Shown: positions 3,262 to 31,393 of the stretch, one piece after another
Numbering within the stretch: position 1 is the stretch's first letter
Layout of the letters: every line of letters begins with the position of its first letter
Assembly (NCBI RefSeq): GCF_014822185.1
Contig: NZ_QVLR01000017.1
Span: 1-44,690, forward strand
Reading direction: 5' to 3'
DNA length: 44,690 nt
From: Azoarcus sp. Aa7
Lineage (GTDB): Bacteria > Pseudomonadota > Gammaproteobacteria > Burkholderiales > Rhodocyclaceae
Position numbers and translations under genes: made by a program
The notes under the pieces: model-generated
Databases searched by the model: none
What the model was told of the DNA's origin: nothing
Seen by the model: only the letters and a program-made list of their open reading frames with translations

Positions 3262-3286
3262 TCGGGCAGGGGGATGGAAGAAGTGG

Positions 3287-3313: not shown

Positions 3314-3415
3314 ATGCAATGCGTCGAATGAACTCCTAACTATCGGTAGGGGCTCAAACCCACCACCAGGACTACCTTCTCCATCACACAAAGAAGATAG
3401 CGATGGAGACAGACG

Positions 3416-4231
3416 ATGCAGGGGGCCTTCAGTGCCGATGATCGGCGAACGGTGGATCAGCCGTACTACCTCCCGAGCGGCAACGAGATCGAGGTGTTTG
3501 AGGCGGCGCATCGCCAGCGCCTGCCGTTGATGCTCAAGGGCCCCACGGGTTGCGGCAAGACTCGTCTCGTCGAGCACATGGCGGCGCGGCTCGGGCTGCC
3601 GCTGATTACGATCGCGTGCCACGAGGACATCACCGCCGCGGATCTGGTCGGCCGGTACCTGCTGCATGGCGGTGAGACGGTGTGGGTCGACGGCCCGCTG
3701 ACCCGTGCGGTTCGCCGCGGCGCGATCTGCTACCTCGATGAAGTCGTCGAGGCGCGCGCCGACACGACCGTCGTGATTCATCCGCTCGCCGACCACCGCC
3801 GGGAACTGCACCTGGAGCGGCTCAACGAAACCCTTCGTGCGCCGGACAACTTCATGCTGGTGCTGTCCTACAACCCCGGCTACCAGAGCGTGCTGAAGGA
3901 TCTGAAACAGTCCACCCGGCAGCGCATGGTCGGCATCGAGCTCGGCTATCCCGCGGCGGAGCGCGAGGTGCGCATCGTCGTTCGGGAAAGCGGCATCGAC
4001 GAGGCGCGGGCGGTCGAACTGGTGAAGCTCGCCCACGCGATTCGCAAGCTCGATGCGAGCATGCTGCCGGACGTGTGCTCGACGCGGACGTTGGTCAGCA
4101 CGGCCCGGCTGTTGTGCGAAGGTCTGTCCCCGCGCGCCGCGGCGACGGCGGCGATGCTGTTGCCGCTGTGCGATGACGCGGAAGTCATGCGCGGGCTGCG
4201 CGAGGTCGTGAACACCTACCTGCCCGAGTAG
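3416..4231 (+). CDS. CbbQ/NorQ-type MoxR-like AAA+ ATPase
   Basis: This 271-residue protein is the usual size for CbbQ/NirQ/NorQ ATPases. Walker A GPTGCGKT lies at residues 42-49 and Walker B YLDE at about 106-109, followed by the family-typical ARADTTVVIHPLADHRREL. The C-terminal part matches the CbbQ_C-type lid region. Such ATPases form hexamers that, with a VWA partner, remodel client metalloenzymes: Rubisco for CbbQO, nitric oxide reductase for NorQD. The partner gene follows after 13 bases. No Rubisco or NO-reductase gene is in the window; the next genes are a hydrolase, an acyl-CoA dehydrogenase and a diiron monooxygenase, so the client is open. A GGAG-like ribosome site precedes the ATG. 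Confidence 0.88.
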   Translation: MQGAFSADDRRTVDQPYYLPSGNEIEVFEAAHRQRLPLMLKGPTGCGKTRLVEHMAARLGLPLITIACHEDITAADLVGRYLLHGGETVWVDGPLTRAVRRGAICYLDEVVEARADTTVVIHPLADHRRELHLERLNETLRAPDNFMLVLSYNPGYQSVLKDLKQSTRQRMVGIELGYPAAEREVRIVVRESGIDEARAVELVKLAHAIRKLDASMLPDVCSTRTLVSTARLLCEGLSPRAAATAAMLLPLCDDAEVMRGLREVVNTYLPE

Positions 4232-4244: not shown

Positions 4245-5969
4245 ATGGCCTCCGTGTCGATCGAACCCCACCCGCTACGGATGCTGGCGGCTGCCGTGGC
4301 CGGCTCGCCGGTGGCGGTCAGTTATCTGACCGAGCCCGGCGCGCGGTGCTGGACCGACGGCGAACGCATCTACCTGTCGGCCGAGCGTCAGGCGGGGGAG
4401 GGCGGACGCGAACTGCTGGTGCAGTGCGCCTTGCTCGCCGGGGGCGCGCTGAAGGCGGTCGGCTTGCGCGCACTGATCGGCAGCATCGAGCAACGCCAGT
4501 GTTTCCTGGTGCTGGAAGTCGAGCGCTGCTGCGCGTCGATCGCCGAGCGGCTGCCGCGCGCCTTCCTGAACGCCCTCGAACCGTATCGCACGGGGCAAGG
4601 TCCGCAGGACGCGGAAGAGTCGCTCCGGATCGCGCGCAGCCGCACGCGCTTGCCGAAACCGCCCGAGTGGTACGGCACCTTGCAGCCTTGGGCGGTGCTG
4701 CGCCGGAACGTGCGCGGTGGCGGCCGCAGCATGGACGCCCGCAAGCTGGAGCAACTCGAGGCGCGGCTCGGGTCGCTCGAAGCGGAGCAGGCGGACGGCG
4801 ACGAAGACGCGCTGGTGCGCAATCCGTTCTGGAAGCTGCTGTCCTCGCCGCTCGGCAAGGATGGCTTCTTCGCCCGCTTCATGCGCGAGATCTTCGACAT
4901 GCAGTCCTCGCCCGATAAGGCCGCGGATTCCGGCATCGAGGGTTCGTCGGAAATGGTCAGCGGGCGCGCGTCGCGCCATGCGTTGGATCTCGGCAAGGCG
5001 CTGCGTTCGGGGCTCGCGGTGGCGATTCCGAGTGCGCTGCTGGTGCCCGAGGGCGGTGCGCACAGCTATCCCGAATGGGATGGGAGCAAGGGACGCTACC
5101 GCCCGGACTGGACCAGTGTCGAGGAAGTGGCGCCCGCCGCCGACGAGCCGTGCTTCGACGAGACGCTGTTGGACGCTGCCACCGACCAGCCGCTGCTGCG
5201 TTCGCTCGCGAGTTTGTGTCTCGGCTTCCGTCGCCATGCCGGCCAGACCGCCGGCGACGACCTCGTGCTCGATCGCCTGATCCGCCTGGCCGTCGATCTG
5301 CGGACGGGCCATTCCGGCGACGAGCGCATCTATTCCGCGAGCCTGCGCACGCGCCGCGACCTGGGCGTGCTGATCCTGCTCGATGCGTCCAGCTCGACGC
5401 TGGAGGGCGGCGGCAACGACCGCGTCGTCGATCGCCAGGTGCGTGCGGCGTGGAAGCTGTGCCGGACCTTCGACCGGCTGGGCGACCGCGTGGCGCTGTA
5501 CGGCTTTCATTCGTGGGGGCGGACGCTGGTCCGCTTCCAGCACCTGAAGGCCTTCGATGAGCGCCTCGGCGCCGAGACGCGCAAGCGCATGGGCCGCCTG
5601 TCGGTGGCGGGCTACACGCGCAGTGGCGCAGCGATCCGCCATGCGACGGAACTGCTCGACGCGCATTCCGGTACGCCGTTCAAGCTGCTGCTGCTGATTT
5701 CCGACGGTTACCCATACGACGACCAGTACGAAGGCGAATACGCCGACCAGGACACGCGCAAGGCGCTCGAAGAGGCCCGCGCGCGTGGCGTCGCCTGCCT
5801 TTGCCTCAGCGTCGGCAGCGATGCCGATGTGGTGCGGCTCGAGCGTGCCTGGGGATCGGCCAACTACCTCGCGATCGGCAATGCCACGGAGATGGCGGCG
5901 CGGCTGCGGGGGGCGGTGGAGCGTGCCATCGGCGCGGCTGCGCGCAAGCGGTACGTGGCGGCTGCGTGA
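4245..5969 (+). CDS. CbbO/NorD-type VWA domain protein
   Basis: This 574-residue protein carries a C-terminal von Willebrand A domain. The MIDAS motif DASSS lies at about residue 380, with the threonine segment GYTRSGAAIRHA and the family-typical LISDGYPYDDQYEGEYADQDT after it. The N-terminal 350 residues are mostly helical and acidic, as in CbbO and NorD. It is the adaptor that docks the upstream AAA+ ATPase onto its client. The pair is co-transcribed (13-base gap) and the hydrolase at 6019 follows closely. All MIDAS residues are present, so the module looks functional. Confidence 0.85.
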   Translation: MASVSIEPHPLRMLAAAVAGSPVAVSYLTEPGARCWTDGERIYLSAERQAGEGGRELLVQCALLAGGALKAVGLRALIGSIEQRQCFLVLEVERCCASIAERLPRAFLNALEPYRTGQGPQDAEESLRIARSRTRLPKPPEWYGTLQPWAVLRRNVRGGGRSMDARKLEQLEARLGSLEAEQADGDEDALVRNPFWKLLSSPLGKDGFFARFMREIFDMQSSPDKAADSGIEGSSEMVSGRASRHALDLGKALRSGLAVAIPSALLVPEGGAHSYPEWDGSKGRYRPDWTSVEEVAPAADEPCFDETLLDAATDQPLLRSLASLCLGFRRHAGQTAGDDLVLDRLIRLAVDLRTGHSGDERIYSASLRTRRDLGVLILLDASSSTLEGGGNDRVVDRQVRAAWKLCRTFDRLGDRVALYGFHSWGRTLVRFQHLKAFDERLGAETRKRMGRLSVAGYTRSGAAIRHATELLDAHSGTPFKLLLLISDGYPYDDQYEGEYADQDTRKALEEARARGVACLCLSVGSDADVVRLERAWGSANYLAIGNATEMAARLRGAVERAIGAAARKRYVAAA

Positions 5970-6018: not shown

Positions 6019-6897
6019 ATGAAACATGAGCTGAAACGCGGTGCCGTCCAGGCCAACGGGCTGGAGTTCCACTATCTGGAGCAGGGCGAGGGGCCGCTGG
6101 CGCTGTTGCTGCACGGCTTCCCCGACAGCGCGATGACCTGGCGCCATCTGATGCCGGTGCTCGCCGCCAAGGGCTATCGCGCGGTCGCTCCATATATGCG
6201 TGGCTATGCGCCGACGACGGCGCCGGACATGTCGGCGCTGGATGCCGTGGGGCTGTTCGTCGGCTTGGGCGCGGACGCGAACGCGCTGCACGCGGCCTTG
6301 GGTGGCACCGAAGAATCGGTCGTGATCGGCCACGACTGGGGTGCCGTGGCGACCTACTCGGCCGCACTGCAAGGGCCGGCGCTGTGGAAACGCGTCGTGA
6401 CGATGGCCGTTCCGCCGCTGAAGGTGCTGGCGCGCCGGCATTCGAGTTTCGCGCAGCTGAAGCGCTCCTTCTACATGTGGTTCTTCCAGATGGCGGCGGC
6501 AGGCGAGGTCGTCGCCGCCGACGACTTCGCCTTCCTCCGCGAATTGTGGGCGGACTGGTCGCCGGGTTACGACGCGCGCGAGGATCTCGCAGAAGTCGGG
6601 CGTTGCCTCGGCGACCGCGCGCACCTGAGCGCGGCGCTGGGCTACTACCGCGCCTTCTTCGATCCGGCCGGCTTTACGTTTGCCTACGGCGAGGGCGCCG
6701 GGCCGCTGTCCCAGCCGCTGCTGTACCTGCACGGCGCTCGCGATGGGTGCATCGGGCTGGATCAGGACGCGATGGCGGAAGCGCTCGCCTGCGCAGGTCC
6801 CGGTTCCAGGGCCTTGCTGGTGCCCGAAACGGGGCACTTCCTGCACCTGGAAAGTCCGGAATTCGTCAGTAAGCAGATCATCGAGTTCATTGGGTAG
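6019..6897 (+). CDS. Alpha/beta hydrolase, epoxide-hydrolase-like
   Basis: A 292-residue protein starting at ATG 6019 behind AGAAGGA; the longer open frame upstream overlaps the VWA gene. Family marks: LLLHGFPDSAMTWRHLMP (HG oxyanion region), the nucleophile elbow GHDWGAV with Asp as nucleophile, and a late GHFLHLE supplying the catalytic His. An Asp nucleophile in GHDWG is typical of epoxide hydrolases and haloalkane dehalogenases rather than esterases. It lies 50 bases after the VWA gene and is probably co-transcribed. Hydrolysis of an epoxide formed by a monooxygenase would fit the neighbourhood, but the substrate is inferred. Confidence 0.8.
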   Translation: MKHELKRGAVQANGLEFHYLEQGEGPLALLLHGFPDSAMTWRHLMPVLAAKGYRAVAPYMRGYAPTTAPDMSALDAVGLFVGLGADANALHAALGGTEESVVIGHDWGAVATYSAALQGPALWKRVVTMAVPPLKVLARRHSSFAQLKRSFYMWFFQMAAAGEVVAADDFAFLRELWADWSPGYDAREDLAEVGRCLGDRAHLSAALGYYRAFFDPAGFTFAYGEGAGPLSQPLLYLHGARDGCIGLDQDAMAEALACAGPGSRALLVPETGHFLHLESPEFVSKQIIEFIG

Positions 6898-7031: not shown

Positions 7032-8207
7032 ATGATCAAGCGCAGCCTGTTCAGTGAAGAGCACGAGATGTTTCGAGACACGGTGCGCAAGTTCATCGAC
7101 CGGGAAATTCGCCCCTACCACGCGCAGTGGGAAAAGGACGGCATCGTGTCGCGCGAGGTGTGGCGCAAGGCCGGTGACGCCGGACTGCTGTGCTGCACGG
7201 TGGACGAGCAGTACGGCGGCCTCGGGCTGGATTACCTCTTCGACGTGATCGTGTTCGAGGAGATCGCGAAGTGCGGCTACACCGGCCCGGGCTTCCTGAT
7301 CCACTGCGACCTGGTGGCGACCTACATCAAGTCCTTCGGCACCGACGCGCAGAAGCGCCAGTGGCTGCCGCGGATGGTGAGCGGCGAGGCGATCGGTGCG
7401 CTTGGGATGACCGAGCCGCATGCCGGCTCCGACCTCAAGAACATCCGCACGCGGGCGGTGCGCGACGGTGACGACTACGTCATCAACGGGCAGAAGGTAT
7501 TCATCTCCAATGGTCAGATGTGCGACGTGCTGGTGCTCGCCGCGAAGACGGACCGCGACGCCGGCGCCAAGGGCATCACGCTGTTCCTGGTCGATACCAG
7601 CCTGCCCGGGTTCAAGCGCGGCAAGAACCTGGAGAAGCTGGGCCTCAAGGCGCAGGACACGTCCGAGCTTTTCTTCGAAGACCTGCGCGTGCCGGCGAGC
7701 GCGATCCTCGGCGAGGAAGGGCAGGGCTTCGCGATCATGATGACCAAGCTCGCGCAGGAGCGGCTCGCGCAGGCGATCCGGTCGGCGGCGGTGGCGGAGG
7801 AGGTGATCGGTTACACGGTCGACTACACCGCCAATCGCGAAGCCTTCGGCAAGACCATCGGCGACTTCCAGAACACCCAGTTCAAGCTCGCCGAACTGCA
7901 TACCGAGTCGGTCATCGGGCGCGTTTTCACCGACCGCTGCATCGAATTGTTCATGCGCGGCGAGCTCGATGCGCTCGACGCGGCGATGGCCAAGATGTGG
8001 CTGTCGAATCTCCACTGCAAGGTGGTCGATGAATGCCTGCAGCTCTTCGGAGGCTGGGGCTACATGTGGGAATACCCGATCGCGCGCGCCTACGCCGACG
8101 CACGCATCGTAAAGATCGCCGGGGGCTCCATAGAAATCATGAAGTACCTGATCGGGCGAAACCTGTTTGCCGAGAAGAAGCCGCGCGAGCTCAGCAACGC
8201 CTCGTAG
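7032..8207 (+). CDS. Acyl-CoA dehydrogenase, long-chain (LCAD)-like
   Basis: A 391-residue flavoprotein that would introduce a 2,3 double bond into an acyl-CoA and pass electrons to ETF (etfAB at 24179-25865). Typical marks are ALGMTEPHAGSDLKNI (FAD/substrate binding), FISNGQ and NREAFGKTIGDFQNTQFKLAEL. The C-terminal FGGWGYMWEYPIARAYADAR is characteristic of the LCAD branch. At the usual SCAD/MCAD catalytic-Glu site it has KIAGGSIEI, with Gly; LCAD and isovaleryl-CoA enzymes instead use a Glu further upstream, which fits the EEVIGYTVDY helix here. It is the first gene after a clear promoter and heads the monooxygenase/ring-cleavage operon. Confidence 0.88.
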   Translation: MIKRSLFSEEHEMFRDTVRKFIDREIRPYHAQWEKDGIVSREVWRKAGDAGLLCCTVDEQYGGLGLDYLFDVIVFEEIAKCGYTGPGFLIHCDLVATYIKSFGTDAQKRQWLPRMVSGEAIGALGMTEPHAGSDLKNIRTRAVRDGDDYVINGQKVFISNGQMCDVLVLAAKTDRDAGAKGITLFLVDTSLPGFKRGKNLEKLGLKAQDTSELFFEDLRVPASAILGEEGQGFAIMMTKLAQERLAQAIRSAAVAEEVIGYTVDYTANREAFGKTIGDFQNTQFKLAELHTESVIGRVFTDRCIELFMRGELDALDAAMAKMWLSNLHCKVVDECLQLFGGWGYMWEYPIARAYADARIVKIAGGSIEIMKYLIGRNLFAEKKPRELSNAS

Positions 8208-8291
8208 CGGCTCGTCGGCGAACAGCCAGGCGCAACCCCAGAGAGAGCCCGGTAACGGCACCCAAAGCCGGACCGGATTGGAGACAAGAAG

Positions 8292-9407
8292 ATGGATTAC
8301 CTCAAGTATTTCGTGCCCGTACTGCTGCAACTGGCCACGCTCGCGGGGCTGCTGGCCGGAGGGCATTGGGTGTGGGCCGGGATTGCCACGTTTCCGCTGC
8401 TCGCTCTCGTCGACAGCATCCTGCCGGCGGATTATTCGCCGCGGCGGATCAAGAGCCGCGCGCTGTCGCTGATTCCGGTGTGGATCTGCGCCATTCTCGG
8501 TCCGACCCTGTACCTGGCCCTCGCGTGGGTTGTCCTGAACGGCCACCTCGACGGTGCGCAGACGGTCGGCGCCCTGCTCAGCGTGGCGTGGCTGTCGGTG
8601 CTGCCGGTGATTCCGGCGACCCACGAGCTCTATCACCAGCGCGGCGCGATCTCGCGCTTCGCCGGGCGTTACGCGCAGGTCTGCTACCTGGACTGCACGC
8701 GCGACATCGGCCACGTCGTCACGCATCACATCCACGTCGCCACGGTGAATGACAGCGATACCGCGCCGCGCGGCATGTCGCTCTACGGCTTCGCGCCGCG
8801 TGCCGTGCTCGACACGACGCTCGACTGCCAGCGCACCGAGTGCGACGCGCTGGAAAAACGCGGCTATGGGCGCTGGTCGATCCGCCATCGGCTGTGGAAG
8901 GCGATCGTCGCCCAGCTCGTATTCCAGGCGGTCATCTACTCGATCGGCGGCTGGGAGGCGAATCTCGCGTCGCTCGGCGCGATGATCGTCGCGCGCTTCT
9001 GGATCGAAACCTTCAACTACTTCCAGCACTACGGGCAGGTGCGTGCGGTGGGCTCGCCGATCGAGAAGCGTCACGTGTGGAATCACCTCAAGCCGCTGTC
9101 GCGAATCATGACCTTCGAGATCACCAATCACGCCGATCACCACCTGAACTCCTACGCGCCGTATTACGCGCTGGTGCCCGACCGGAAGGCGATCCCGATG
9201 CCGAGCGTGTTCGTGTGCTTCCTCACCGCCTTGCTGCCGCCCATCTGGTTCAACTCGATCATCAAGCCCGCGCTGGAGCGCTGGGATCGCGAGTTCGCGT
9301 CGCCCGAGGAACAGAAGCTGGCGATGGCGCAGAACGAGCGCGCCGGTTGGCCGAACTGGATCGAATCGCGTGGCAGCGCGCGAGGCACGGCGCCGAATCA
9401 CGCCTGA
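8292..9407 (+). CDS. AlkB-like membrane diiron monooxygenase
   Basis: A 371-residue integral membrane protein with hydrophobic segments around residues 8-40, 55-82, 92-108 and 205-235. The histidine clusters of the AlkB/XylM/fatty-acid hydroxylase superfamily are present: HELYH (111-115), HVVTHH (141-146), NYFQHYG (242-248) and NHADHH (279-284). The second cluster differs from the EHxxGHH of classical AlkB, and the total is somewhat shorter than AlkB (about 400). Such enzymes hydroxylate methyl or methylene groups using O2 and electrons from rubredoxin or ferredoxin; neither donor gene is in the window. Placed between an acyl-CoA dehydrogenase and SDR genes, it probably performs the first oxidation of a hydrocarbon or terpenoid substrate (inference). 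Confidence 0.85.
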   Translation: MDYLKYFVPVLLQLATLAGLLAGGHWVWAGIATFPLLALVDSILPADYSPRRIKSRALSLIPVWICAILGPTLYLALAWVVLNGHLDGAQTVGALLSVAWLSVLPVIPATHELYHQRGAISRFAGRYAQVCYLDCTRDIGHVVTHHIHVATVNDSDTAPRGMSLYGFAPRAVLDTTLDCQRTECDALEKRGYGRWSIRHRLWKAIVAQLVFQAVIYSIGGWEANLASLGAMIVARFWIETFNYFQHYGQVRAVGSPIEKRHVWNHLKPLSRIMTFEITNHADHHLNSYAPYYALVPDRKAIPMPSVFVCFLTALLPPIWFNSIIKPALERWDREFASPEEQKLAMAQNERAGWPNWIESRGSARGTAPNHA

Positions 9408-9467
9408 TGAATGCGTAGTGCATGACTAATCCGTGGCGTCCGTCCGGATGCCCGGCAAGGAGACCGT

Positions 9468-10358
9468 ATGCTGTTCGATAAACAATGTCTGGCCGGCAAG
9501 CGCGTGCTGATCACCGGCGGGGGTACCGGCATCGGCAAGGGGCTGGCGCGGCACCTCGCGTCGCACGGGGCGAGCGTCCATATCTGGGGGCGGCGCGCAC
9601 AGGTCCTCGAAGAGGCGGCGGCGGAGATCAACAGCGAGCTCGACGCCGAGCGGGTGCATTGGCAGGCGGTCGATATCCGCAAGGCCGAAGCGGTCGACGC
9701 CGCCGTCGCGGAAATCTGGGAGAAGTGCGGGCCACTGACCGGCCTGATCAACAACGCCGCGGCGAACTTCATCGCGCCGACCAAGGAGCTGAGCCCGCGC
9801 GGCTACGAGGCGATCACCTCCACCGTGATGAACGGCGCGTTCTTCACGACGCAAGCCGTGGGTCGCCGCTGGATCGCGAACGGCCTGAAGGGCTCGGTGG
9901 TGTCGACGCTCGTCACCTGGATCTGGACCGGCTCGCCCTTCGTCGTGCCCTCGGCGATGGCGAAGGCTGCCGTGAATGCGATGACGATGTCGCTGGCGGT
10001 CGAGTGGGCCAAGTACGGCATCCGCGTCAATGCGGTCGCGCCGGGGCCGTTCCCGACCGACTACGCCTGGAAGATGCTCAACCCGACCGACGACAGCTCG
10101 GTCGGCGCGACGCAGGCCGACGAAGTGCCGGCCGGGCGCTTCGGCGAGATCTCGGAGTTGGGCAATCTCGTGCTGCTGCTGCAGTCGGACGGCTGTGACT
10201 ACATCACCGGCGAGACCATCGCGATCGATGGCGCACATCACCTCGCCGCGCCGTCCACCTTCGCCGGTCTGAACAAGCTCTCCGACGAGCAGTGGGCCAA
10301 CATCAAGGAACAAGCCAAGGCCGCGAGCGAGCACAGCAAGGCTCAGCGCACGGTCTGA
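9468..10358 (+). CDS. SDR, 2,4-dienoyl-CoA reductase-like
   Basis: A 296-residue short-chain dehydrogenase/reductase with cofactor motif TGGGTGIGKG and INNAAANFIAPT. The catalytic YxxxK of alcohol-oxidising SDRs is replaced by SAMAK, followed by AAVNAMTMSLAVEWAKYGIRVNAVAPGPF (shortened here), which is the pattern of the FadH/DECR-type SDR subfamily that reduces 2,4-dienoyl-CoA with NADPH. The C-terminal tail of about 40 residues is longer than usual. GGAG precedes the ATG at 9468. In this operon it could reduce an unsaturated ring thioester. It ends one base before the palindromic element at 10359. Confidence 0.8.
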   Translation: MLFDKQCLAGKRVLITGGGTGIGKGLARHLASHGASVHIWGRRAQVLEEAAAEINSELDAERVHWQAVDIRKAEAVDAAVAEIWEKCGPLTGLINNAAANFIAPTKELSPRGYEAITSTVMNGAFFTTQAVGRRWIANGLKGSVVSTLVTWIWTGSPFVVPSAMAKAAVNAMTMSLAVEWAKYGIRVNAVAPGPFPTDYAWKMLNPTDDSSVGATQADEVPAGRFGEISELGNLVLLLQSDGCDYITGETIAIDGAHHLAAPSTFAGLNKLSDEQWANIKEQAKAASEHSKAQRTV

Positions 10359-10492
10359 GAGGTTATGAATAAATCTACTGCGCGACCCGATTTCGCCCCT
10401 GTCGAACTTGGCAAATGCGTCGCCGTACTACTTGTACGGCTGCGCTTCTCGGGCCGAACTCGGGCCGCTCGCGACGATTTCTTCACAACCTC
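10359..10492. repeat. 134-bp imperfect palindromic element
   Basis: Terminal arms at 10359-10375 and 10476-10492 pair at 15 of 17 positions (GAGGTTATGAATAAATC against the complement of GATTTCTTCACAACCTC). At the centre GCCGTAC (10422-10428) and GTACGGC (10434-10440) form a perfect stem around TACTT. Intermediate segments also pair roughly, so the whole element could fold into one long hairpin. It carries no gene and lies exactly between two operon genes. It looks like a MITE or other dispersed palindromic unit. Confidence 0.6.
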
Positions 10493-10536
10493 TGATGTAT
10501 CGAAAACGGATTGATTAACCGCTTAACAGGAGACAG

Positions 10537-11307
10537 ATGGTGCGAGGACTCAAGGACAAGGTTGCGCTGGTCACCGGCGCGGCGAGCGGCATCGGGCTGG
10601 CGATCGCCAGGCGGCTGGCCGAGGAGGGCATGGCGGTCGGCGTGCTGGACATGAACGGCCAGGCCGCCCACGCGGCAGTTGAGCAGATCCGTGCGGCCGG
10701 CGGCAAGGCCGATTATGAAGCCTGCGACATCACCGATTACGCCGCCGTCACGAAGGCGGTGGCGGCGATCGAATCGCGCCTCGGGCCGACCTGGGCGCTG
10801 GTCAACAACGCCGGCTGGGACACCCCGACCGCCTTCCTGAAGACCACGCCGGACTTCTGGCGCAAGGTCGTCGACATCAACTACCTCGGCCCGATCCACA
10901 TGACCCACGCGGTCGTGGCGGGCATGGCCGAACGGGGCGGCGGCCGCGTGATCTTCATCGCGTCGGATGCGGGCCGGGTCGGTTCGTCGGGTGAGGTGGT
11001 CTATTCGGGCTGCAAGGGCGCGACGATCTCCTTCGCCAAGGCGCTGGCGCGCGAAGTGGCGCGCAACAACGTGCTGCTCAACTGCGTCTGCCCGGGGCCG
11101 ACCAACACGCCGGCGATGGATGCCTTCGTCGGCACCGGCGAGCAGGGCGAGAAGATCCGCAACGCGATGGTACGCGGCGTGCCGCTCGGCCGCATCGGCG
11201 AGCCGGACGACTATCCCGGCCTTGTCGCCTTCCTCGCGAGCGACGACGCCTCCTTCATGACCGGCCAGACCGTCAGCATCTCCGGCGGCTTGACGATGCA
11301 CGGCTGA
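10537..11307 (+). CDS. BadH-like 2-hydroxycyclohexanecarboxyl-CoA dehydrogenase (SDR)
   Basis: A 256-residue SDR with TGAASGIG, NNAG, catalytic Ser in FIASDAGRVGSSGE and an intact VYSGCK (YxxxK). The start MVRGLKDKVALVTG, the segment NNAGWDTP and the end SISGGLTMHG closely resemble, from memory, BadH of Rhodopseudomonas palustris. BadH oxidises 2-hydroxycyclohexane-1-carboxyl-CoA to the 2-oxo compound with NAD in anaerobic benzoate and cyclohexanecarboxylate degradation. The next gene is BadI-like, the enzyme for the following step, which strengthens the call. Ring substituents of the true substrate are unknown. Confidence 0.8.
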   Translation: MVRGLKDKVALVTGAASGIGLAIARRLAEEGMAVGVLDMNGQAAHAAVEQIRAAGGKADYEACDITDYAAVTKAVAAIESRLGPTWALVNNAGWDTPTAFLKTTPDFWRKVVDINYLGPIHMTHAVVAGMAERGGGRVIFIASDAGRVGSSGEVVYSGCKGATISFAKALAREVARNNVLLNCVCPGPTNTPAMDAFVGTGEQGEKIRNAMVRGVPLGRIGEPDDYPGLVAFLASDDASFMTGQTVSISGGLTMHG

Positions 11308-11323
11308 GCAAATCCTGACGCCC

Positions 11324-11418
11324 CGTAGGGCGGAAAAGCGAAGCGCCTTCCGCCACACGGCCGTCGAGATGGCAGGGCGAAACATTCGGCGGATAACGCT
11401 TCGCTCATCCGCCCTACG
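11324..11418. repeat. Dispersed REP-like repeat, copy 2
   Basis: Outer arms CGTAGGGCGG (11324-11333) and CCGCCCTACG (11409-11418) are perfect inverted repeats. Inside are GAAAAGCGAAGCGCCTTCCGCC and GGCGGATAACGCTTCGCTCATC (given in part), which pair further. A degenerate copy is at 464-550. It sits between the BadH-like and BadI-like genes and may affect their mRNA processing. Confidence 0.65.
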
Positions 11419-11454
11419 AACGACGCATCACCCACACTTTTCAGGCAAAAAATC

Positions 11455-12249
11455 ATGAGTACGCAATTCAAGGACATCCTCTACGAAGTCGGCGCCAACG
11501 CCGTCTACATCACCATCAACCGCCCCGAAGTCTTCAACGCCTTCCGCACGCAGACCGTCGAGGAGCTGATCCAGGCCTTCCGCATGGCCGACGAGGAGAA
11601 GTCGGTCAACGCCGTGATCTTCGGTGGCGCCGGCGACAAGGCCTTCTGCACCGGTGGCGACCAGAAGGTGCATCTCTCCGAGGACGGACTGTACGGCCCG
11701 CGCGGCATGGTCGGCCTGCCGATCGAGGAACTGCAGAGCGCGATCCGCGACTGCCGCAAGGTCGTCATCGCCCGCGTGCAGGGCTTCGCGATCGGCGGCG
11801 GCAACGTCTTCGCGACCATCTGCGACCTGACCCTCGCGTCCGAAAAGGCGCAGTTCGGCCAGGTCGGTCCGAAGGTCGGCTCGGTCGATCCCGGCTTCGG
11901 CACCGCCTACCTCGCGCGCATGGTCGGCGAGAAGAAGGCACGCGAGATCTGGTTCCGTTGCCAGCGCTATACGGCGCAGCAGGCGCTGGAAATGGGTCTG
12001 GTGAACAAGGTCGTGCCGCATGAGGAACTGGATGCGGAATGCGAACTCTGGGCTGCGGACATCAACCAGATGAGCCCGACCGCCATCGCCATCGCCAAGC
12101 GTTCGTTCAACGCCGACAGCGAGAACATCCGTGGCATCAGCTTCATGGGTGTGGCGGCGGTGAAGGGCTACTACCAGAGCGAAGAGTCGAAGGAAGGCGT
12201 GCGCGCGTTCAACGAGAAGCGCAAGCCCGAGTTCAAGAAGTACCTCTAA
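11455..12249 (+). CDS. BadI-like 2-ketocyclohexanecarboxyl-CoA hydrolase
   Basis: A 264-residue crotonase-superfamily protein of the MenB/BadI group. It follows the R. palustris BadI pattern closely, as I recall it: FKDILYEV, AFCTGGDQ (oxyanion region), GLPIEELQSAIRDC, ARVQGFAIGGGN, FGQVGPKVGSVDPGFGTAYLAR and the end FNEKRKPEFKKYL. BadI hydrolytically opens the ring of 2-oxocyclohexanecarboxyl-CoA to pimelyl-CoA. It follows the BadH-like gene and precedes a hydratase gene by 18 bases. This is the best single clue that the operon breaks a six-membered alicyclic ring at the CoA-thioester level. Confidence 0.85.
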   Translation: MSTQFKDILYEVGANAVYITINRPEVFNAFRTQTVEELIQAFRMADEEKSVNAVIFGGAGDKAFCTGGDQKVHLSEDGLYGPRGMVGLPIEELQSAIRDCRKVVIARVQGFAIGGGNVFATICDLTLASEKAQFGQVGPKVGSVDPGFGTAYLARMVGEKKAREIWFRCQRYTAQQALEMGLVNKVVPHEELDAECELWAADINQMSPTAIAIAKRSFNADSENIRGISFMGVAAVKGYYQSEESKEGVRAFNEKRKPEFKKYL

Positions 12250-12267
12250 CAGGAATCCGGGCGCGCA

Positions 12268-13872
12268 ATGGATCAGAACATCAGGGTCGAGCTGGATCAG
12301 GACGGCGTCTTGCTGGCATGCATCGACATGCCCGGCCGTTCGATGAACGTCTTCTCCATGGACATGATGGATTCGCTCGAGCGACTCGTCGTGCATGTGG
12401 AAGAGAATCCGGACGTGCGGGCGGTGGTGCTGACCTCCGGCAAGTCCGCCTTCATCGCAGGGGCTGATCTGGCGATGATCAGCAACGTGTTCGACAAGCG
12501 CGCCCGGTCCGATTCCCATGCCCAGCTGGTGGAACTGTGCGGCCGGCTCGGCCGCATCTTCCGGCGGCTGGAGAAAAGTACTAAGCCGTGGGTCGCCGCG
12601 GTCAATGGTCTGGCGCTGGGTGGCGGGCTCGAAGTGAGCCTCGCGTGCCACGCGAGGGTCGTGGCCGACGCGCCGAACGTTCTGCTCGGACTGCCCGAGA
12701 TCAAGCTGGGCCTCCTTCCCGGGGCCGGTGGCACGCAGCGGCTGCCCCGGCTCGTTGGCGCGCGGCGGGGTCTGCGGATGCTGCTCGACGGCAACCCGCT
12801 GGCCCCTGCGGCGGCGCTCGAATGCGGTCTCGTCGATGAGGTCGTCCCGCCCGCGGAACTGATCGCGGCGGCCAGGCGGCGCGCGTTGCTCTCGTTGGAC
12901 CGCAGGACGCCGCCCTGGGATCGCGCGGACGCGCCGTTCGACGACGAAGGCCTCGCCTTCGACGCCCCGGATGTGCGCCAGCGCATTGCCGACGAGTTCG
13001 GCGTGTCGGACGAAACCCTCGCGAAATATCCGGCCTATGTCGCGATCATGAACTGCGTGATCGAGGGCCGGACAATGCCGATGGATGCGGCGCTCGCGAA
13101 CGAGATGGATATCTTCGTGAACCTGATCCGGAACCCGGTCGCGGGTCACATGGTGCGCGCGCTGTTCCTCAACCGGCAGCGTTCGCTGAAGGCCACGCCC
13201 ATTTCGCTGGACCCGCGCACCGCCAAGGTGGCCGTGTTCGGCGAAGGAGCCGAAGCGGTCGCGAAGAAGCTCGCGGCGGCCAGGGCGCGAATCGTTGCGC
13301 CCGAAGCGCTGTCGCCCGGCGATGTTGCCGTGTTCACGGGGGATGCCATAGTCAGCCACGAACCATCGGTACGGTGGTTGACGGAGGACGCCACCACGCT
13401 CGGTGGGGCGGCCGCGGGTGTCTGGCTGTCCCCGAAAACCGAATACGGCCGCGCCGTCGAAGTCGTGCTCACCGCAGACGACGCGAGCGCGCGCGACGCC
13501 GGCCTCGCTGCGGCCCGCTGGCTGCGTGCGGATGCGATCCTCGAGACGCGTGGCGATGCCTCCTTGCTGCTGCAGTTGTCGCACAGCGTGACTGTCGCGC
13601 GGGAAGCGGGATGCAGCGTGGACGAACAGCTACTGGCGATCTCGCTGACAGCGATCCGCGCTTGGCAGGCGGGTGCGATTGCGGATACGCAGCTCGCGGA
13701 CTCGGCTGCCGTCGTCGCGGGAGTCGCACCGGCCTGGACTGGCGGACCGTTCGCCTATGCCGCGCAGCAGGGGCTCGAGGTGCTGCGCCGCCGCGCCGCG
13801 GGCGCGTCAGGAGTCTCGATATTCGCGTGGCCGGAGGGCGTGGAGTCGCTGTTTGCGGCGATTGCAGCCTGA
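12268..13872 (+). CDS. Enoyl-CoA hydratase fused to a degenerate 3-hydroxyacyl-CoA dehydrogenase region
   Basis: A 534-residue FadB/FadJ-like protein. Residues 1-200 are a normal crotonase domain with AFIAGADLAMI (oxyanion hole) and both catalytic glutamates, in GGGLEVSLACH and GLPEIKLGLLPGAGGTQ. The rest aligns in order with a FadJ dehydrogenase half but is eroded: the NAD-binding GxGxxG is reduced to AVFGEGAEAV, the Rossmann part is much shortened, and only the C-terminal WTGGPFAYA region is recognisable. The total is about 170 residues shorter than FadJ. Hydratase activity is likely and dehydrogenase activity unlikely. Good codon use and no stops argue for a maintained protein rather than a pseudogene. 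Confidence 0.8.
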   Translation: MDQNIRVELDQDGVLLACIDMPGRSMNVFSMDMMDSLERLVVHVEENPDVRAVVLTSGKSAFIAGADLAMISNVFDKRARSDSHAQLVELCGRLGRIFRRLEKSTKPWVAAVNGLALGGGLEVSLACHARVVADAPNVLLGLPEIKLGLLPGAGGTQRLPRLVGARRGLRMLLDGNPLAPAAALECGLVDEVVPPAELIAAARRRALLSLDRRTPPWDRADAPFDDEGLAFDAPDVRQRIADEFGVSDETLAKYPAYVAIMNCVIEGRTMPMDAALANEMDIFVNLIRNPVAGHMVRALFLNRQRSLKATPISLDPRTAKVAVFGEGAEAVAKKLAAARARIVAPEALSPGDVAVFTGDAIVSHEPSVRWLTEDATTLGGAAAGVWLSPKTEYGRAVEVVLTADDASARDAGLAAARWLRADAILETRGDASLLLQLSHSVTVAREAGCSVDEQLLAISLTAIRAWQAGAIADTQLADSAAVVAGVAPAWTGGPFAYAAQQGLEVLRRRAAGASGVSIFAWPEGVESLFAAIAA

Positions 13873-13883
13873 GGAGGACGAAC

Positions 13884-14309
13884 GTGGCGATCGACCGAAA
13901 GTTTCTCGGTTTCGCGCTGCCTCCGTTCAAGGTGACGGCAACGCCTGAGCGCATCGCGCGTTTCGCCGACGCCATCGGCGAGCGCAACCCGCTCTATCGC
14001 GAGGGCATCGCACCGCCGACCTTCCTGAAGGTGTTGGAAGGCGAAGACAACAGTTCGCGCCGAATCCTCGATGCGCTGGGCGTGCCGCTGCCGCGGGTGC
14101 TGCACGCCGAACAACAGTTCGACTACCTCGCACCGGTGCGCGCCGGCGACGAGCTCCTGGTCGAGCGCCGCGTTACCGACCTGTACGACAAGAAAGGCGG
14201 TGAGATGGAGTTCATCGTGATCGAGACGAGTTTCACCGGCCCCTCGGGAATGCTGGTCGCCCGCTCGCGCCAGATCGTGCTTGTTCGTAACGCTCCCCGG
14301 AGCCAATGA
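13884..14309 (+). CDS. FAS1-like/MaoC N-terminal-type dehydratase subunit
   Basis: A 141-residue protein started at GTG 13884 behind GGAGGA, 11 bases after the hydratase gene. The fold pattern is that of FAS1-like dehydratase (PF13452-type) domains: FKVTATPERIARFADAIGERNPLY, APPTFLKVL and HAEQQFDYLAPVRAGDELL. These half-hot-dog proteins usually pair with a second MaoC subunit to form an (R)-specific enoyl-CoA hydratase; that partner begins one base after this stop codon. Probable role: hydration of a ring or side-chain enoyl-CoA. Confidence 0.78.
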   Translation: MAIDRKFLGFALPPFKVTATPERIARFADAIGERNPLYREGIAPPTFLKVLEGEDNSSRRILDALGVPLPRVLHAEQQFDYLAPVRAGDELLVERRVTDLYDKKGGEMEFIVIETSFTGPSGMLVARSRQIVLVRNAPRSQ

Positions 14310-14310
14310 G

Positions 14311-14721
14311 ATGGCGATCGACCTGCTCAATGTCGCAGTCGGTGCGGTGCTCGCCGCCCGCGACTGTCCCGCGCGCGTCAAGGACGAGCTCGCGCAATAC
14401 GCCCACGCCTCCGGCGACATGAACCCGCTGCACCTCGACGAAGCCTTCGCCCGCAAGGCCGGTTTCGACAATCTCGTTGTGCACGGCATGCTCAACATGG
14501 CCCTTCTCGGCCGCCTGCTCACCGATCACTTCGAAACCGATACGATTCGCGGCTTCTCGACCCGGTTCGAAGGCGTACTACAGGTCGGCGAGCCAACCCG
14601 GGTGTCGATGACACTTGCGGGCCGGACAGGCGAACACGCCGAGATCGGGCTCGAAATGCTGACCCACGAAGGTCGGCGAATCGTCAGCGGTCATGCGAAA
14701 GTCCGACTCAGGATTTCGTGA
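14311..14721 (+). CDS. MaoC-like hydratase subunit
   Basis: A 136-residue hot-dog protein with the hydratase-2 motif region YAHASGDMNPLHLDEAFARKAGF (cut here) containing the catalytic Asp and His, then VVHGMLNMALLGRLL. ATG 14311 follows the previous stop after one base, so the two are translationally coupled and probably form a heterodimeric (R)-enoyl-CoA hydratase. It is the last gene of the operon starting at 7032; the next gene is on the opposite strand. Confidence 0.82.
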   Translation: MAIDLLNVAVGAVLAARDCPARVKDELAQYAHASGDMNPLHLDEAFARKAGFDNLVVHGMLNMALLGRLLTDHFETDTIRGFSTRFEGVLQVGEPTRVSMTLAGRTGEHAEIGLEMLTHEGRRIVSGHAKVRLRIS

Positions 14722-16782: not shown

Positions 16783-17700
16783 CTACACCGGGTCCCAGGT
16801 GAAGACGTCGCCGGAACGGTGCAGGGGGTAGAGGTCGTTCTCGAACATCGGGAACACGCGCTCGATCACTGATTCGGGCGTCCAGCCGTCGGAGGTGTGG
16901 GCGGTGCGGATCGGGCGGGATTGCGAGAAGAGGTAGATCTCGTTGTTGCGCACGCCGAAGATCTGGCCGGTCACGCCCGCGGCGGCGTCGCTCGAGAGTG
17001 CGGTGACGAAGGGGGCGATCTTTTCGGGAATCAGTTTCATCAGGCCTTCGACGCGCTTCTGCTGCTCCTCGGTTTCCGCCGGGATGGTGTTCACCATGCG
17101 CGTCCAGGCCCAGGGCGCGACCGCGTTTGAGCGGACGTTGAAGCGCTGCAAGTCCAGCGCGATGCTCTTGGACAGGGCGACGACGCCGAGCTTGGCGGCG
17201 GCGTAGTTGGCCTGGCCGAAGTTGCCGATAAGGCCGGAGCTGGACGTGATGTGCACGTAGCTGCCGCCGTTCTGCGTCTTGAAGTGCGGCGCGGCGGCGC
17301 GGCTGACGTAGAACACGGCGTTCAGGTTCACGTTGATGACGGCCTCGAATTCCTCGCGGCTCATCTTGTGGAAGATGGTGTCGCGCAGGATGCCGGCGTT
17401 GTTCACGACGATGTCGATGCGGCCGAAGGTGTCCAGCGCCGTCTGCACCATCGCATGCGCCTCGTCCCAGTCGGCGACCGAATGGGTGTCGGCCACGGCT
17501 TGGCCGCCCGCTGCGTGGATCTCGTCGACCACCTGTTGCGCCGGGCCGAGATCCGAGCCTTCGCCGGTGGTCGAGGCGCCGATGTCGTTGACCACCACGC
17601 GGGCGCCGGCCGCCGCGAGGTCCAGTGCGATGCCGCGCCCCACGCCCCGTCCCGAGCCGGTGACGAGGGCGACTTTGCCTTCGAGCAATTTGCTGTTCAT
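16783..17700 (-). CDS. SDR, HSD17B4-type (3R)-hydroxyacyl-CoA dehydrogenase-like
   Basis: A 305-residue SDR with TGSGRGVGRG, the extended VVVNDIGASTTGEGSD loop, NNAGILRD and catalytic SSSGLIGNFGQANYAAAK (Ser, Tyr, Lys present). The loop and NNAGILRDxxFHKM pattern are typical of the dehydrogenase half of peroxisomal multifunctional enzyme type 2 (HSD17B4) and its bacterial relatives, which oxidise (3R)-hydroxyacyl-CoAs. That would fit the MaoC-type (R)-hydratases in this region. It is a single-gene unit with GGAG before the start, a divergent promoter shared with the OYE gene, and a clear terminator. Confidence 0.82.
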   Translation of the reverse strand: MNSKLLEGKVALVTGSGRGVGRGIALDLAAAGARVVVNDIGASTTGEGSDLGPAQQVVDEIHAAGGQAVADTHSVADWDEAHAMVQTALDTFGRIDIVVNNAGILRDTIFHKMSREEFEAVINVNLNAVFYVSRAAAPHFKTQNGGSYVHITSSSGLIGNFGQANYAAAKLGVVALSKSIALDLQRFNVRSNAVAPWAWTRMVNTIPAETEEQQKRVEGLMKLIPEKIAPFVTALSSDAAAGVTGQIFGVRNNEIYLFSQSRPIRTAHTSDGWTPESVIERVFPMFENDLYPLHRSGDVFTWDPV

Positions 17701-18964: not shown

Positions 18965-20116
18965 ATGATTCCAGACGATGACCAGCAGGCGCTGCAGGCG
19001 AGCGTGCGGCGATTCGCGCGCGAGTGCCTGTTGCCGGGCTACCAGAAGCGCGAGGCCGATGGCCGGCTCGACCGCGCGCTGGTGCGCGAGATGGGGCAGA
19101 TGGGCCTGCTCGCCGCCGACGTGCCCGAGCGGCTCGGCGGCATGGGGCTCGATGGCGTCACCACCGGCATGATTTGCGAGGAACTCGCCTATGGCGACTT
19201 CAATCTCGCGGGCCTGTCGGTGGAGATGAGCCTGCTGGCGGCGATCCTGACCCGCAGCGCCCCGGCCCACATCGTCGACGAGTGGGTGCCGCGGATGACG
19301 CGCGGCGAAGCGATCGTCGCGATCTGCGTGACCGAGCCGCGGGGCGGTTCCGACGCCTCGAACCTGCAGATGCGCGCGCGACGCGACGGCGGCGATTTCA
19401 TCCTCAACGGCGAAAAGACCTCCATCAGCTTCGCCGACACGGCCGACGCCTTCCTCGTGTTCGCCCGCAGCGGTACGGTGGAGTCGGGCGCGCGCGGCAT
19501 CACGGCCTTCTTCGTGCCAGGCGACGCGCCGGGCATCCAGCGCACGCGTTTCACCGACGTCGGCTGCCGCATCCAGGGGCGTGGCTCGGTCTTCTTCGAC
19601 GACGTGCGGGTATCCGCCGCAAACATCCTCGGCGCAGAAGGCAGGGGCTTCACCGAGGTGATGGTCGGCTTCGACTACAGCCGCGCACTGATCGCGCTGC
19701 AGTGCATCGGCGCGGCGCAGGCCTCGCTCGACGAAGCGTGGGCCTACACCCGCGAGCGCGAAGCCTTCGGCCGGCCGATCGCGCAGTTCCAGGGCGTGAC
19801 CTTTCCGCTGGTGGATGGCGAATCGATGATCGCCGCCGTGCGCCAGCTCTCCTATCACGCGCTGGCGCTGCGCGATGCCGGCCGCCCGCACACGGCCGAG
19901 GCGGCGATGGTCAAGTGGATGGGCCCGAAGACCGCCGTCGACGTGATCCACCAATGCCTGCTGACCTTCGGCCACTACGGCTATTCGCTCGATTCTCCGC
20001 ACCAGCAACGCATGCGCGACGTGACGGGCCTGGAGATCGGCGACGGCACGGCCGGCGTGATGAAGCTGATCATCGCGCGCGAGCGTGTCGGTCGCGAAGC
20101 GGTGCAATACCTATAA
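18965..20116 (+). CDS. Acyl-CoA dehydrogenase with Asp at the usual catalytic-Glu site
   Basis: A 383-residue flavoprotein with the family marks VAICVTEPRGGSDASN, ISFADTADAFLVFAR, REAFGRPIAQFQG and the C-terminal HYGYSLDSPHQQRMRDV. Where MCAD-type enzymes have IYEGT with the catalytic Glu, it reads EIGDGTAGVMK, so Asp replaces Glu. Cyclohexanecarboxyl-CoA dehydrogenases (AliB-like) are a family I would compare first, given the BadH/BadI-like genes nearby; acyl-CoA dehydrogenases that act with hydroxyacyl-CoA kinases are the other candidate. It lies 27 bases after the OYE gene and 36 bases before an SDR gene. Confidence 0.85.
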   Translation: MIPDDDQQALQASVRRFARECLLPGYQKREADGRLDRALVREMGQMGLLAADVPERLGGMGLDGVTTGMICEELAYGDFNLAGLSVEMSLLAAILTRSAPAHIVDEWVPRMTRGEAIVAICVTEPRGGSDASNLQMRARRDGGDFILNGEKTSISFADTADAFLVFARSGTVESGARGITAFFVPGDAPGIQRTRFTDVGCRIQGRGSVFFDDVRVSAANILGAEGRGFTEVMVGFDYSRALIALQCIGAAQASLDEAWAYTREREAFGRPIAQFQGVTFPLVDGESMIAAVRQLSYHALALRDAGRPHTAEAAMVKWMGPKTAVDVIHQCLLTFGHYGYSLDSPHQQRMRDVTGLEIGDGTAGVMKLIIARERVGREAVQYL

Positions 20117-27961: not shown

Positions 27962-28522
27962 TCACTCGGCATCGATGTCCGACGACTCCGTCGAACCGAG
28001 CCCGAGCAGCGAATCCTTGATCGACGAGAGCATACGGATAAGTTCGTTGCGATCATTGTCGCTGAGGCTGGCGAGTATCTGTTCGTTGAAGTCGCTCTCG
28101 GTCTTCACCAGCTTTTCGAGCAACTGCATCGAACTGCGCGACAGGAACACCCGTTTCATGCGGCGATCGGTCGCATCGGGGCGGCGCTCGATGAATCCGG
28201 TCGCTTCGAGCCGGTCGAGCAGCGAACCGAGGCTGGCCTTGCCGACATCGAGCATCGACGCCAGTTGCGTCTGTGCCATTCCGTCATGACGCGAGAGATG
28301 CGCCAGCACCCACCACTGCGCGCGGGTGATGCCGAGCGGCTTCATCAGCTGGTCGAAGACCGTGCGGCGCATCCGCGACACGTCGTGGATCAGGTAGCCC
28401 AGCTTGATGTCGCGCCGCTGGGCGGCCGTGTCCACCGGCTTGGCTTTCGGGGCGGGCTCGCTGGTGGCCGATGAGGATTTGGTGACCTTGGCTGTCGCCG
28501 GGCCGGATTCCTTTGCTCGCAT
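27962..28522 (-). CDS. MarR-family transcriptional regulator
   Basis: A 186-residue protein with an extra basic, Ala/Ser/Lys-rich N-terminal tail of about 37 residues before the MarR core. The winged helix is clear: LGITRAQWWVLAHLSRHDGM, QTQLASMLDVGKASLGSLLD and GFIERRPDATDRRMKRVFLS. MarR proteins are dimers that usually repress degradation genes until a ligand, often an aromatic acid or CoA-thioester, binds. It is a candidate controller of the GTACGnnAC promoters in this window; one such element lies in its own upstream region (28605-28613). Confidence 0.9.
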   Translation of the reverse strand: MRAKESGPATAKVTKSSSATSEPAPKAKPVDTAAQRRDIKLGYLIHDVSRMRRTVFDQLMKPLGITRAQWWVLAHLSRHDGMAQTQLASMLDVGKASLGSLLDRLEATGFIERRPDATDRRMKRVFLSRSSMQLLEKLVKTESDFNEQILASLSDNDRNELIRMLSSIKDSLLGLGSTESSDIDAE

Positions 28523-29872: not shown

Positions 29873-29924
29873 GCGGGCGTCGGCTGCTCTCCCCTCCATT
29901 TCCAATCGGAACAGAGATCACCCA

Positions 29925-31391: not shown

Positions 31392-31393
31392 GG

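Follow-up and report, generated by a model that had tools for sequence, protein, structure and literature searches.

The window analysed here is a 44,690 nt stretch of the genome of Azoarcus sp. Aa7 (contig NZ_QVLR01000017.1, positions 1-44,690, of assembly GCF_014822185.1), and the locus under study within it, at positions 7032-14721, is filled by eight consecutive reading frames on the forward strand. The first of these (7032..8207) encodes an MrcB-like acyl-CoA dehydrogenase (PF00441, PF02771 and PF02770), 97% identical to its A. toluclasticum counterpart. It is followed by the gene for a XylM-like membrane monooxygenase of the FA_desaturase fold (8292..9407; PF00487), which lies between mrcB and mrcC, and then by that for an MrcC-like 2,4-dienoyl-CoA-reductase-type short-chain dehydrogenase (SDR; 9468..10358), for which NF005811 was the best model (228.7 bits, cut-off 318) and which is 96% identical to the A. 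toluclasticum protein and 81% identical to that of Denitromonas. The fourth and fifth genes encode a BadH-like SDR (10537..11307), the counterpart of MrcD and conserved beside mrcE, and a BadI-like crotonase (11455..12249), the counterpart of MrcE. Downstream, in the position of mrcF in C. defragrans, is the gene for an MrcF-like predicted perillyl-CoA hydratase, an enoyl-CoA hydratase (PF00378) with a long C-terminal part (12268..13872). The run ends with two dehydratase halves, one MrcG-like and of the FAS1_DH/MaoC type (about 13884..14309; PF13452, from a chosen GTG start that follows GAGGAG) and one MrcH-like and of the MaoC type (about 14311..14721; PF01575, the ATG at 14311 being read from the sequence). 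The reading frames confirm the coordinates and common strand that an earlier note had given for these eight genes, and Pfam and NCBIfam agree with its family assignments. We consider it probable that the locus is a monoterpene ring cleavage (mrc) operon containing the gene for a XylM-like methyl hydroxylase, which hydroxylates a p-menthene hydrocarbon at its ring methyl group.

A filter on GC content by codon position was passed by seven of the eight frames, the exception being mrcG, which is backed by its Pfam match and its conservation despite this failure. From mrcB to mrcG, the gaps between genes, as measured with the chosen starts, are 84, 60, 178, 147, 18 and 11 bases, a layout from which it seems likely that all eight are carried on a single transcript; promoters could lie inside the 178- and 147-base gaps. 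Scans of the window with Rfam, at the gathering threshold, and for tRNA genes returned no match, and the short inverted repeats found in five of its intergenic stretches are weak.

The ring-cleavage operon itself has already been described as mrc, in C. defragrans 65Phen (PMC4109377). Table 1 of that paper lists MrcA to MrcH as CDM25255 to CDM25248, comprising an FAD oxidoreductase (MrcA), an acyl-CoA dehydrogenase (MrcB), a 2,4-dienoyl reductase (MrcC), a 2-hydroxy-4-isopropenylcyclohexane-carboxyl-CoA dehydrogenase (MrcD), a 4-isopropenyl-2-oxocyclohexane-carboxyl-CoA hydrolase (MrcE), a perillyl-CoA hydratase (MrcF) and two MaoC-like proteins (MrcG and MrcH). Insertion mutants in mrcC and mrcF are reported to have lost growth on limonene and phellandrene, and phellandrene-grown cells to produce MrcD, MrcE and MrcF (PMC4109377). 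By family and order, rather than by direct comparison with C. defragrans sequences, the window contains mrcB-C-D-E-F-G-H on one strand as the C. defragrans island does, and also shares with that island neighbouring genes for a MarR regulator, a thiolase, a CoA transferase, an electron transfer flavoprotein (ETF), a dienoyl-CoA-reductase-like protein and a flavin oxidoreductase. The two differ in that no oxygenase is listed between MrcB and MrcC of C. defragrans, the identifiers of which are consecutive (CDM25254 and CDM25253; PMC4109377), and entry there is through the flavin limonene dehydrogenase CtmAB, whereas here a XylM-like gene lies in the operon.

Two further comparisons connect the window to this system. 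MrcB of C. defragrans is, in Table 1 of PMC4109377, 90% identical to an Azoarcus toluclasticus protein, which we take to be the A. toluclasticum MrcB counterpart compared here; the same table gives 88% identity between C. defragrans MrcE and its counterpart in Azoarcus KH32C, and the window MrcE-like protein is 96.6% identical to the KH32C plasmid protein. The KH32C plasmid pAZKH (NC_020548) carries mrcB, D, E, F, G and H in the same order, but the 237 bp between mrcB and mrcD hold neither mrcC nor an oxygenase gene, both of which are present in the window. The lrc operon of Syntrophobacteraceae LiM6 is also similar, in the perillyl-CoA ring opening proposed for it and in an enzyme of the HMG-CoA-synthase superfamily encoded downstream, but activation in that methanogenic culture is ascribed to a glycyl radical limonenylsuccinate synthase, unlike what is proposed below (PMC12583861).

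For the fourth and fifth genes the best NCBIfam models were TIGR03206 (benzo_BadH; 327.8 bits, cut-off 431.2) and TIGR03210 (badI; 403.1 bits, cut-off 467.6); since both fall short of their cut-offs, MrcD and MrcE fit these genes better than BadH and BadI. The relationship of the fifth was examined further by phylogeny. A scan of contigs with the BadI-like protein gave relatives from which the best 80 loci among the matches listed were taken, falling into a group A of 36 (L009-L044), 73-96% identical to the window protein, and a group B of 44 (L045-L088), 64-71% identical, many of which have genes for an AliB-like dehydrogenase and a ligase as neighbours. The resulting tree has 117 rows, none from C. 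defragrans, after removal of L006, for which the match was too short, and L089, which had none; the labels MrcE, BadI, mrc-linked, XylM and AlkB in this and the oxygenase tree were assigned by us, and some long branches were flagged by the tree tool. A fork of 41 rows with support of 100/99 unites the window protein with those of KH32C and A. toluclasticum, and comprises all 40 rows labelled MrcE together with one labelled BadI. The earlier note had held that a BadI-like protein placed outside the ring hydrolases would tell against BadH/BadI-type ring opening; its placement is not outside them, and with the match to mrc this supports ring opening of that type.

The genome has a second BadI copy, at C92:23696 on another contig, which is 63% identical to the window protein, lies outside the MrcE fork and is accompanied by AliB-like dehydrogenase, MarR, BadH-like, ligase-like and hydratase-like genes, a set resembling the bad-ali cluster described for Aromatoleum sp. 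CIB (PMC9795900). The bad-ali route, as reported from Rhodopseudomonas palustris and that strain, shares BadH/BadI-type dehydrogenation and hydrolytic ring opening with the system described here, but belongs to the other fork of the tree and has the partner genes aliA, aliB, badK and badR in place of the mrc order (PMC9795900). With the window protein placed in the MrcE fork and the bad-ali-type copy on C92 elsewhere in the tree, cyclic monoterpenoids appear likelier substrates than naphthenic acids; of the classes put forward in the earlier note, perillyl-type monoterpenoids thus gain support and naphthenic or cyclohexanecarboxylic acids are disfavoured as the main substrate.

When L003, L004 and L007 are dropped from the BadI alignment, 114 rows remain, across which Ser143 and Asp145 hardly vary. 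A crotonase signature of our own (S-x-D-x-G type) proved too strict, matching 79 of the 117 rows, and was not used. Nine positions, one of them an insertion, split 40 MrcE from 62 BadI rows (for instance Asn52/Gly, Pro82/Gly, Val103/Pro and Phe167/Tyr), and may possibly be substrate-pocket markers for the 4-substituent. MrcE relatives of at least 88% identity occur in three of 150 genomes in a sample of the family, and of at least 70% in one of 369 in a sample of the class, the Aa7 genome itself being among the three and constituting the one; hence the distribution of the mrc operon is patchy, like that of an acquired island.

The second gene of the run is what distinguishes this operon. Over its full length the product shares 39.7% identity with XylM, and in the PDB it matches the AlkB chains 8sbb and 8f6t (E about 2-3e-18). 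In a tree of 33 oxygenases it falls in a clade of 20 rows (99/99) beside XylM; four rows labelled XylM, two of which (L210 and L211) are annotated as alkane 1-monooxygenase, form a separate fork (98/94), so that the window protein is not within XylM proper, and four labelled AlkB, annotated as alkane 1-monooxygenase, stand apart from the window clade (100/100). The description of this protein in the earlier note as an AlkB-like monooxygenase therefore holds for the AlkB/XylM fold and for the presence of an O2-using enzyme in the operon, but not for AlkB proper, the phylogeny giving a XylM-type enzyme. Ten histidines (111, 115, 141, 145, 146, 246, 261, 280, 283 and 284) are conserved in all 33 rows. 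The frame is intact and preceded by a GGAGAC-type site, its GC content (0.658, GC3 0.881) is similar to that of its neighbours, and the protein is 89% identical to the A. toluclasticum counterpart at the same position, between mrcB and mrcC. In Denitromonas ohlonensis, by contrast, a gene-free gap of about 60 bp separates mrcB from mrcC.

Genes for similar proteins, at a cut-off of at least 50% identity, were sought in the Aa7 genome and in 44 others, 36 of group A and eight of group B, and found in Aa7, 15 of the group A genomes and one of the group B genomes. In ten of the 15 the gene lies on the mrcE contig, about 2 to 44 kb away and in nine cases less than 28 kb. The G012 copy has one internal stop (TGA); it was dropped from the tree, as L157, because the stop falls inside the aligned stretch, but is still counted among the 15. 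Only Aa7 is positive at this cut-off among the 150 genomes of the family sample, where the next best match is 42%, and in the class sample only Aa7 and G284 are (2/369). In G284 an MrcB-like gene (80%) lies directly upstream of the XylM-like gene, and a XylA-like reductase gene nearby. As a separate observation in the class sample, G343, G455 and G550 combine a BadI-like protein of 63-68% identity with XylM-like proteins of 36-42%. Amongst plasmid records, 48 match the XylM-like protein and a single one, from Novosphingobium, reaches 60% identity (60.9%), which means that a close copy is absent from pAZKH of KH32C. Two sphingomonad plasmids, NZ_CP017076.1 (Novosphingobium resinovorum pSA1) and L090 (Sphingopyxis macrogoltabida 203N), were seen to carry both a XylM-like (58-61%) and a BadI-like (63%) gene; in L090 these are about 6 kb apart, with XylA-like, aldehyde dehydrogenase, alcohol dehydrogenase (ADH) and ligase genes.

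A XylM-type hydroxylase would need a reductase, for which there is a candidate on another contig of the assembly, C34. The gene at C34:24562-25617 encodes a protein 41.4% identical to XylA of pWW53 over 345 aa, with Fer2, FAD_binding_6 and NAD_binding_1 domains, and adjoins a gene for a GeoA-like ADH. Across 39 genomes with mrc genes, a XylA-like reductase (E <= 4.3e-98; 47-53% identity) is present in 17: all 16 of those positive for the XylM-like gene, Aa7 included, and one of the 23 negative ones (Fisher p 4.5e-10). Weaker relatives (E <= 1e-40) are found in 36 of the 39. The XylM-like gene adjoins both the XylA-like reductase gene and a zinc ADH gene in G009, G012 and G017, an arrangement like the xylM-xylA-xylB of TOL, and adjoins the reductase gene in G022 and G024. 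From this pattern we infer that the XylM-like protein of the window and the C34 reductase work together. The combination of a two-component XylM/XylA-type methyl hydroxylase with alcohol and aldehyde dehydrogenases resembles the upper pathway XylCMAB of TOL and, as reviewed in PMC4097962, CymBCAaAb of the p-cymene pathway; it differs from both in that the acid proposed here is alicyclic, not aromatic, and that the hydroxylase gene lies apart from that of its reductase, within the ring-cleavage operon. On a simple reading, the oxygenase gene of this lineage would once have belonged to an ADH-XylM-XylA module and been transferred from there to the mrc operon; such a move would have left the reductase and ADH genes together, as they are on C34.

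C34 also encodes an aldehyde dehydrogenase (PF00171), a ligase, the A. toluclasticum counterpart of which has PF00501, an MrcA-like flavoprotein, and acyl-CoA dehydrogenase-, CoA lyase- and MaoC-like proteins. The order of these genes matches CDM25256-CDM25265 of C. defragrans, the ligase, CoA lyase, acyl-CoA dehydrogenase and MaoC genes occupying corresponding positions. Judged by size and place, the large genes of C34 would correspond to those for acetoacetyl-CoA synthetase and RND efflux in the C. defragrans island. In C. defragrans mrcA adjoins mrcB, as the consecutive identifiers indicate, whereas here the MrcA-like gene is on C34; in A. toluclasticum three genes separate the two. A single A. 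toluclasticum contig carries counterparts of both C34 and the window, again in the order mrcB-XylM-mrcC, which makes it probable that C34 is located left of the window.

Taken together, these genes suggest a route, in which the reaction assignments follow those proposed for C. defragrans in PMC4109377. Taking electrons from the XylA-like reductase of C34, the XylM-like protein would carry out the O2-dependent hydroxylation of the ring methyl of a p-menthene hydrocarbon such as limonene. The GeoA-, GeoB- and GeoC-like enzymes of C34 would then convert the alcohol via the aldehyde and acid to the CoA thioester, perillyl-CoA, to which MrcF would add water; MrcD would form the 2-oxo thioester and MrcE hydrolyse the ring to give isopropenyl-pimelyl-CoA, which MrcB, MrcG and MrcH, along with products of the genes at 16.8-34 kb, might degrade by beta-oxidation. 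The gene content, order, families, phylogeny and co-occurrence are observed; each catalytic step, the exact substrate, and the action of the XylM-like enzyme on the same hydrocarbon are what we infer from them.

Other enzymes that might activate the hydrocarbon were also sought. No P450 match was found in the Aa7 genome at E <= 1e-10, a control search having detected P450s in seven of 14 known genomes. Four PF01593 matches (E <= 1e-5) were candidates for the limonene dehydrogenase CtmAB, but include no tandem pair, and the covalent-flavin motif GF[LR]x[NS][TL]HA, reported for CtmAB in PMC11061730, is at none of the four places, a search made with no CtmAB positive control and thus leaving absence unproven. 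With no P450 and no CtmAB candidate, and other monooxygenase families not searched, the remaining candidates found are the XylM-like enzyme and a molybdenum (Mo) enzyme encoded on C34. According to the review PMC4097962, the p-cymene pathway of P. putida is implicated in the conversion of limonene to perillate, so that XylM/XylA-type action on limonene has a precedent.

The molybdenum enzyme is ethylbenzene-dehydrogenase-like, with its alpha subunit encoded at C34:4701-7613 on the reverse strand and a 4Fe-4S beta subunit at about 7613-8760 on the same strand (locus L182). The alpha subunit belongs to the type II DMSO-reductase family: its best PDB match is EbdA (2ivf; 589 bits), its best model TIGR03479, at 871.5 bits below the cut-off of 984.75, and a twin-arginine-like RRGFLK lies near its N terminus. 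The beta subunit exceeds the cut-off of TIGR03478 (514.7 bits against 480.7). Alpha genes of at least 75% identity occur in seven of the 39 mrc genomes, Aa7 included, the relatives being 75-96% identical; the copy in G007 is partial and that in G020 has an internal stop. No plasmid record matches the alpha subunit at E <= 1e-100. The molybdenum enzyme genes adjoin an MrcA-like gene in Aa7 (G000) and in G001, G003, G007, G009 and G138. Close to the MrcA-like and alpha genes in the latter five genomes are relatives of two genes upstream of the operon in the window, which encode a CbbQ/NirQ/NorQ-type AAA+ ATPase (3416..4231, forward strand; PF07728 and PF08406) and its partner, a VWA-domain protein (4245..5969, forward strand; PF00092). 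VWA relatives of at least 58% identity are present in seven of the 39 genomes, six of which are among the seven with the alpha gene, and the AAA+/VWA pair follows the molybdenum enzyme genes, not the XylM-like one. These two proteins are possible maturation factors for an enzyme of the type II DMSO-reductase family.

A mutual exclusion of the XylM-like and molybdenum enzyme genes was considered and dropped, the latter being present in 3/16 XylM-positive and 4/23 XylM-negative genomes (Fisher p 1.0). They occur together in three of the 39, namely Aa7, A. toluclasticum and a Rhodoferax ferrireducens genome. In the mrc-like clusters L031, L034, L010 and L016, negative for both at the 50% and 75% cut-offs respectively, comparison with the proteins at hand revealed no activating enzyme. 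We raise tentatively, as an idea that may well not hold, that the Aa7 genes form a dual-entry terpene island, in which the XylM-like enzyme with O2 and the molybdenum enzyme without it, the latter perhaps matured with the AAA+/VWA proteins, feed one ring-cleavage operon with one hydrocarbon across an oxic/anoxic boundary. The molybdenum enzyme would then be a new type of limonene-class hydroxylase. The earlier note had envisaged an aerobic or hybrid route; the O2-using enzyme agrees with this, and given the molybdenum enzyme 'hybrid' is perhaps the truer word.

Several observations weigh against an mrc operon served by its own methyl hydroxylase. The route is predicted here from genes, and the link to C. 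defragrans runs via Table 1 of PMC4109377, A. toluclasticum and KH32C rather than by direct sequence comparison. The reductase and Geo-like genes are on a different contig, the closeness of which to the window is deduced from A. toluclasticum, and the Geo names rest on family and order. The split between MrcE and BadI labels has support of only 45/46, with L045, labelled BadI, inside the MrcE fork. No XylM-like gene of at least 50% identity is present in 21 of the 36 group A mrcE genomes, hence the XylM-like gene is no required part of mrc, and the BadI-like protein of G284 is only 58% identical and encoded on a different contig from its XylM-like gene. The Fisher value for the reductase overstates independence, as the genomes were picked by mrcE similarity and include relatives, and the threshold was chosen once the gap had been seen; one genome, G046 (83% complete), has the reductase and no XylM-like gene. 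Finally, p-cymene might be the true substrate, the oxygenase tree having been built without CymAa.

This last point leads to an alternative that we regard as unlikely, in which mrc serves monoterpenoids while the hydrocarbon oxidised by the XylM-like enzyme is p-cymene or a different alkylbenzene, and the location of the oxygenase gene within the operon is incidental or a matter of co-regulation. The characterised relative XylM oxidises xylenes, CymAa is likewise XylM-like and oxidises p-cymene, and several mrc genomes have three or more XylM-like copies of varied identity, such that the family is not tied to a single substrate. However, members of the clade accompany mrc genes across unrelated lineages, on the mrcE contig in ten of 15 cases and with an MrcB-like neighbour in G284, and the p-cumate formed from p-cymene is aromatic, with no direct entry into the MrcF-D-E sequence. 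That activation is solely by the molybdenum enzyme, with the XylM-like gene silent or marginal, seems very unlikely: its alpha gene occurs in seven mrc genomes, beside an MrcA-like gene in six, and the window holds the associated AAA+ and VWA genes, but the oxygenase frame is intact, with its ten histidines, GGAGAC-type site and 89% identity to the A. toluclasticum counterpart all retained, and 13 of the 16 XylM-positive genomes have no such molybdenum gene. There is scarcely any prospect that the operon is instead a bad-ali route for cyclohexanecarboxylate or naphthenic acids, in which the oxygenase would attack an alkyl side chain. In favour of this, benzo_BadH and badI score best among the NCBIfam models, and bad-ali genes are reported also to serve aerobic growth on cyclohexanecarboxylate (PMC9795900); against it, the genome has a bad-ali-type locus of its own on C92, the window protein is in the MrcE fork, the window shows no enrichment of the BadR box CAAN4TTG (four matches against 4.99 expected) and the operon has counterparts of mrcB, mrcC, mrcG and mrcH.

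An mrc operon with its own methyl hydroxylase therefore remains our preferred reading. Searches of the open-licence PMC literature, subscription papers being outside their scope, found no published account of an mrc operon that includes a XylM-like oxygenase; relative to the literature searched, the combination of mrc with the XylM-like clade in several unrelated bacteria, and the possible second, O2-independent hydroxylase in Aa7, were not found described. Plants release more than 500 Tg of monoterpenes and isoprene a year, according to PMC4097962. In the mrc island of C. defragrans the first enzyme is a flavoprotein that does not depend on oxygen (PMC4109377), and the operon described here suggests a way in which that route, known from an oxygen-independent bacterium, became adapted to life in air. 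The XylM-like clade, for which a reductase and an ADH are likewise candidates, is a genetic candidate for an aerobic methyl hydroxylase that feeds the mrc route in various bacteria; if the molybdenum enzyme also acts here, a facultative anaerobe would be keeping two interchangeable C-H hydroxylases for one substrate.

Other genes of the window surround the operon. Immediately upstream is an alpha/beta hydrolase gene (6019..6897, forward strand, the start being chosen from the reading frame; PF00561), conserved in L009 and L011. Downstream, an SDR gene (16783..17700, reverse strand; PF00106) is likely, from its order, to be the counterpart of CDM25246 in the C. defragrans island, and an SDR gene also lies beside mrcH in KH32C. 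An acyl-CoA dehydrogenase (18965..20116, forward strand; PF00441, PF02771 and PF02770) probably belongs to the lower pathway, and a MarR-type regulator is encoded at 27962..28522 on the reverse strand (PF12802), MarR genes recurring in related clusters. An HMG-CoA-synthase-like protein fused to a ChsH2-type OB domain (29922..31391, forward strand, start estimated; PF08541 and PF01796), which scores 143.8 bits with NF003274, below the cut-off of 244, is followed by an SCP2-type thiolase (31391..32596, forward strand, start estimated; PF22691), which with 654.2 bits is above the NF004810 cut-off of 403. Genes for this fusion and thiolase lie just upstream of mrcD-mrcE in many Burkholderiales loci.

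At the left end of the window, a gene for a Fic-domain protein with DUF4172 (2092-3315, reverse strand) adjoins one for a DUF1835/DUF3658 protein (542-1360, reverse strand); the interval from the MrcA-like to the CbbQ gene in A. toluclasticum (L172) has no room for the Fic and DUF1835 genes. Between the operon and the next catabolic genes is a reverse-strand gene (14825-16657) for a predicted membrane protein with a GGDEF motif, as read from the sequence, a 39% relative of which is encoded at C34:12504-14441.

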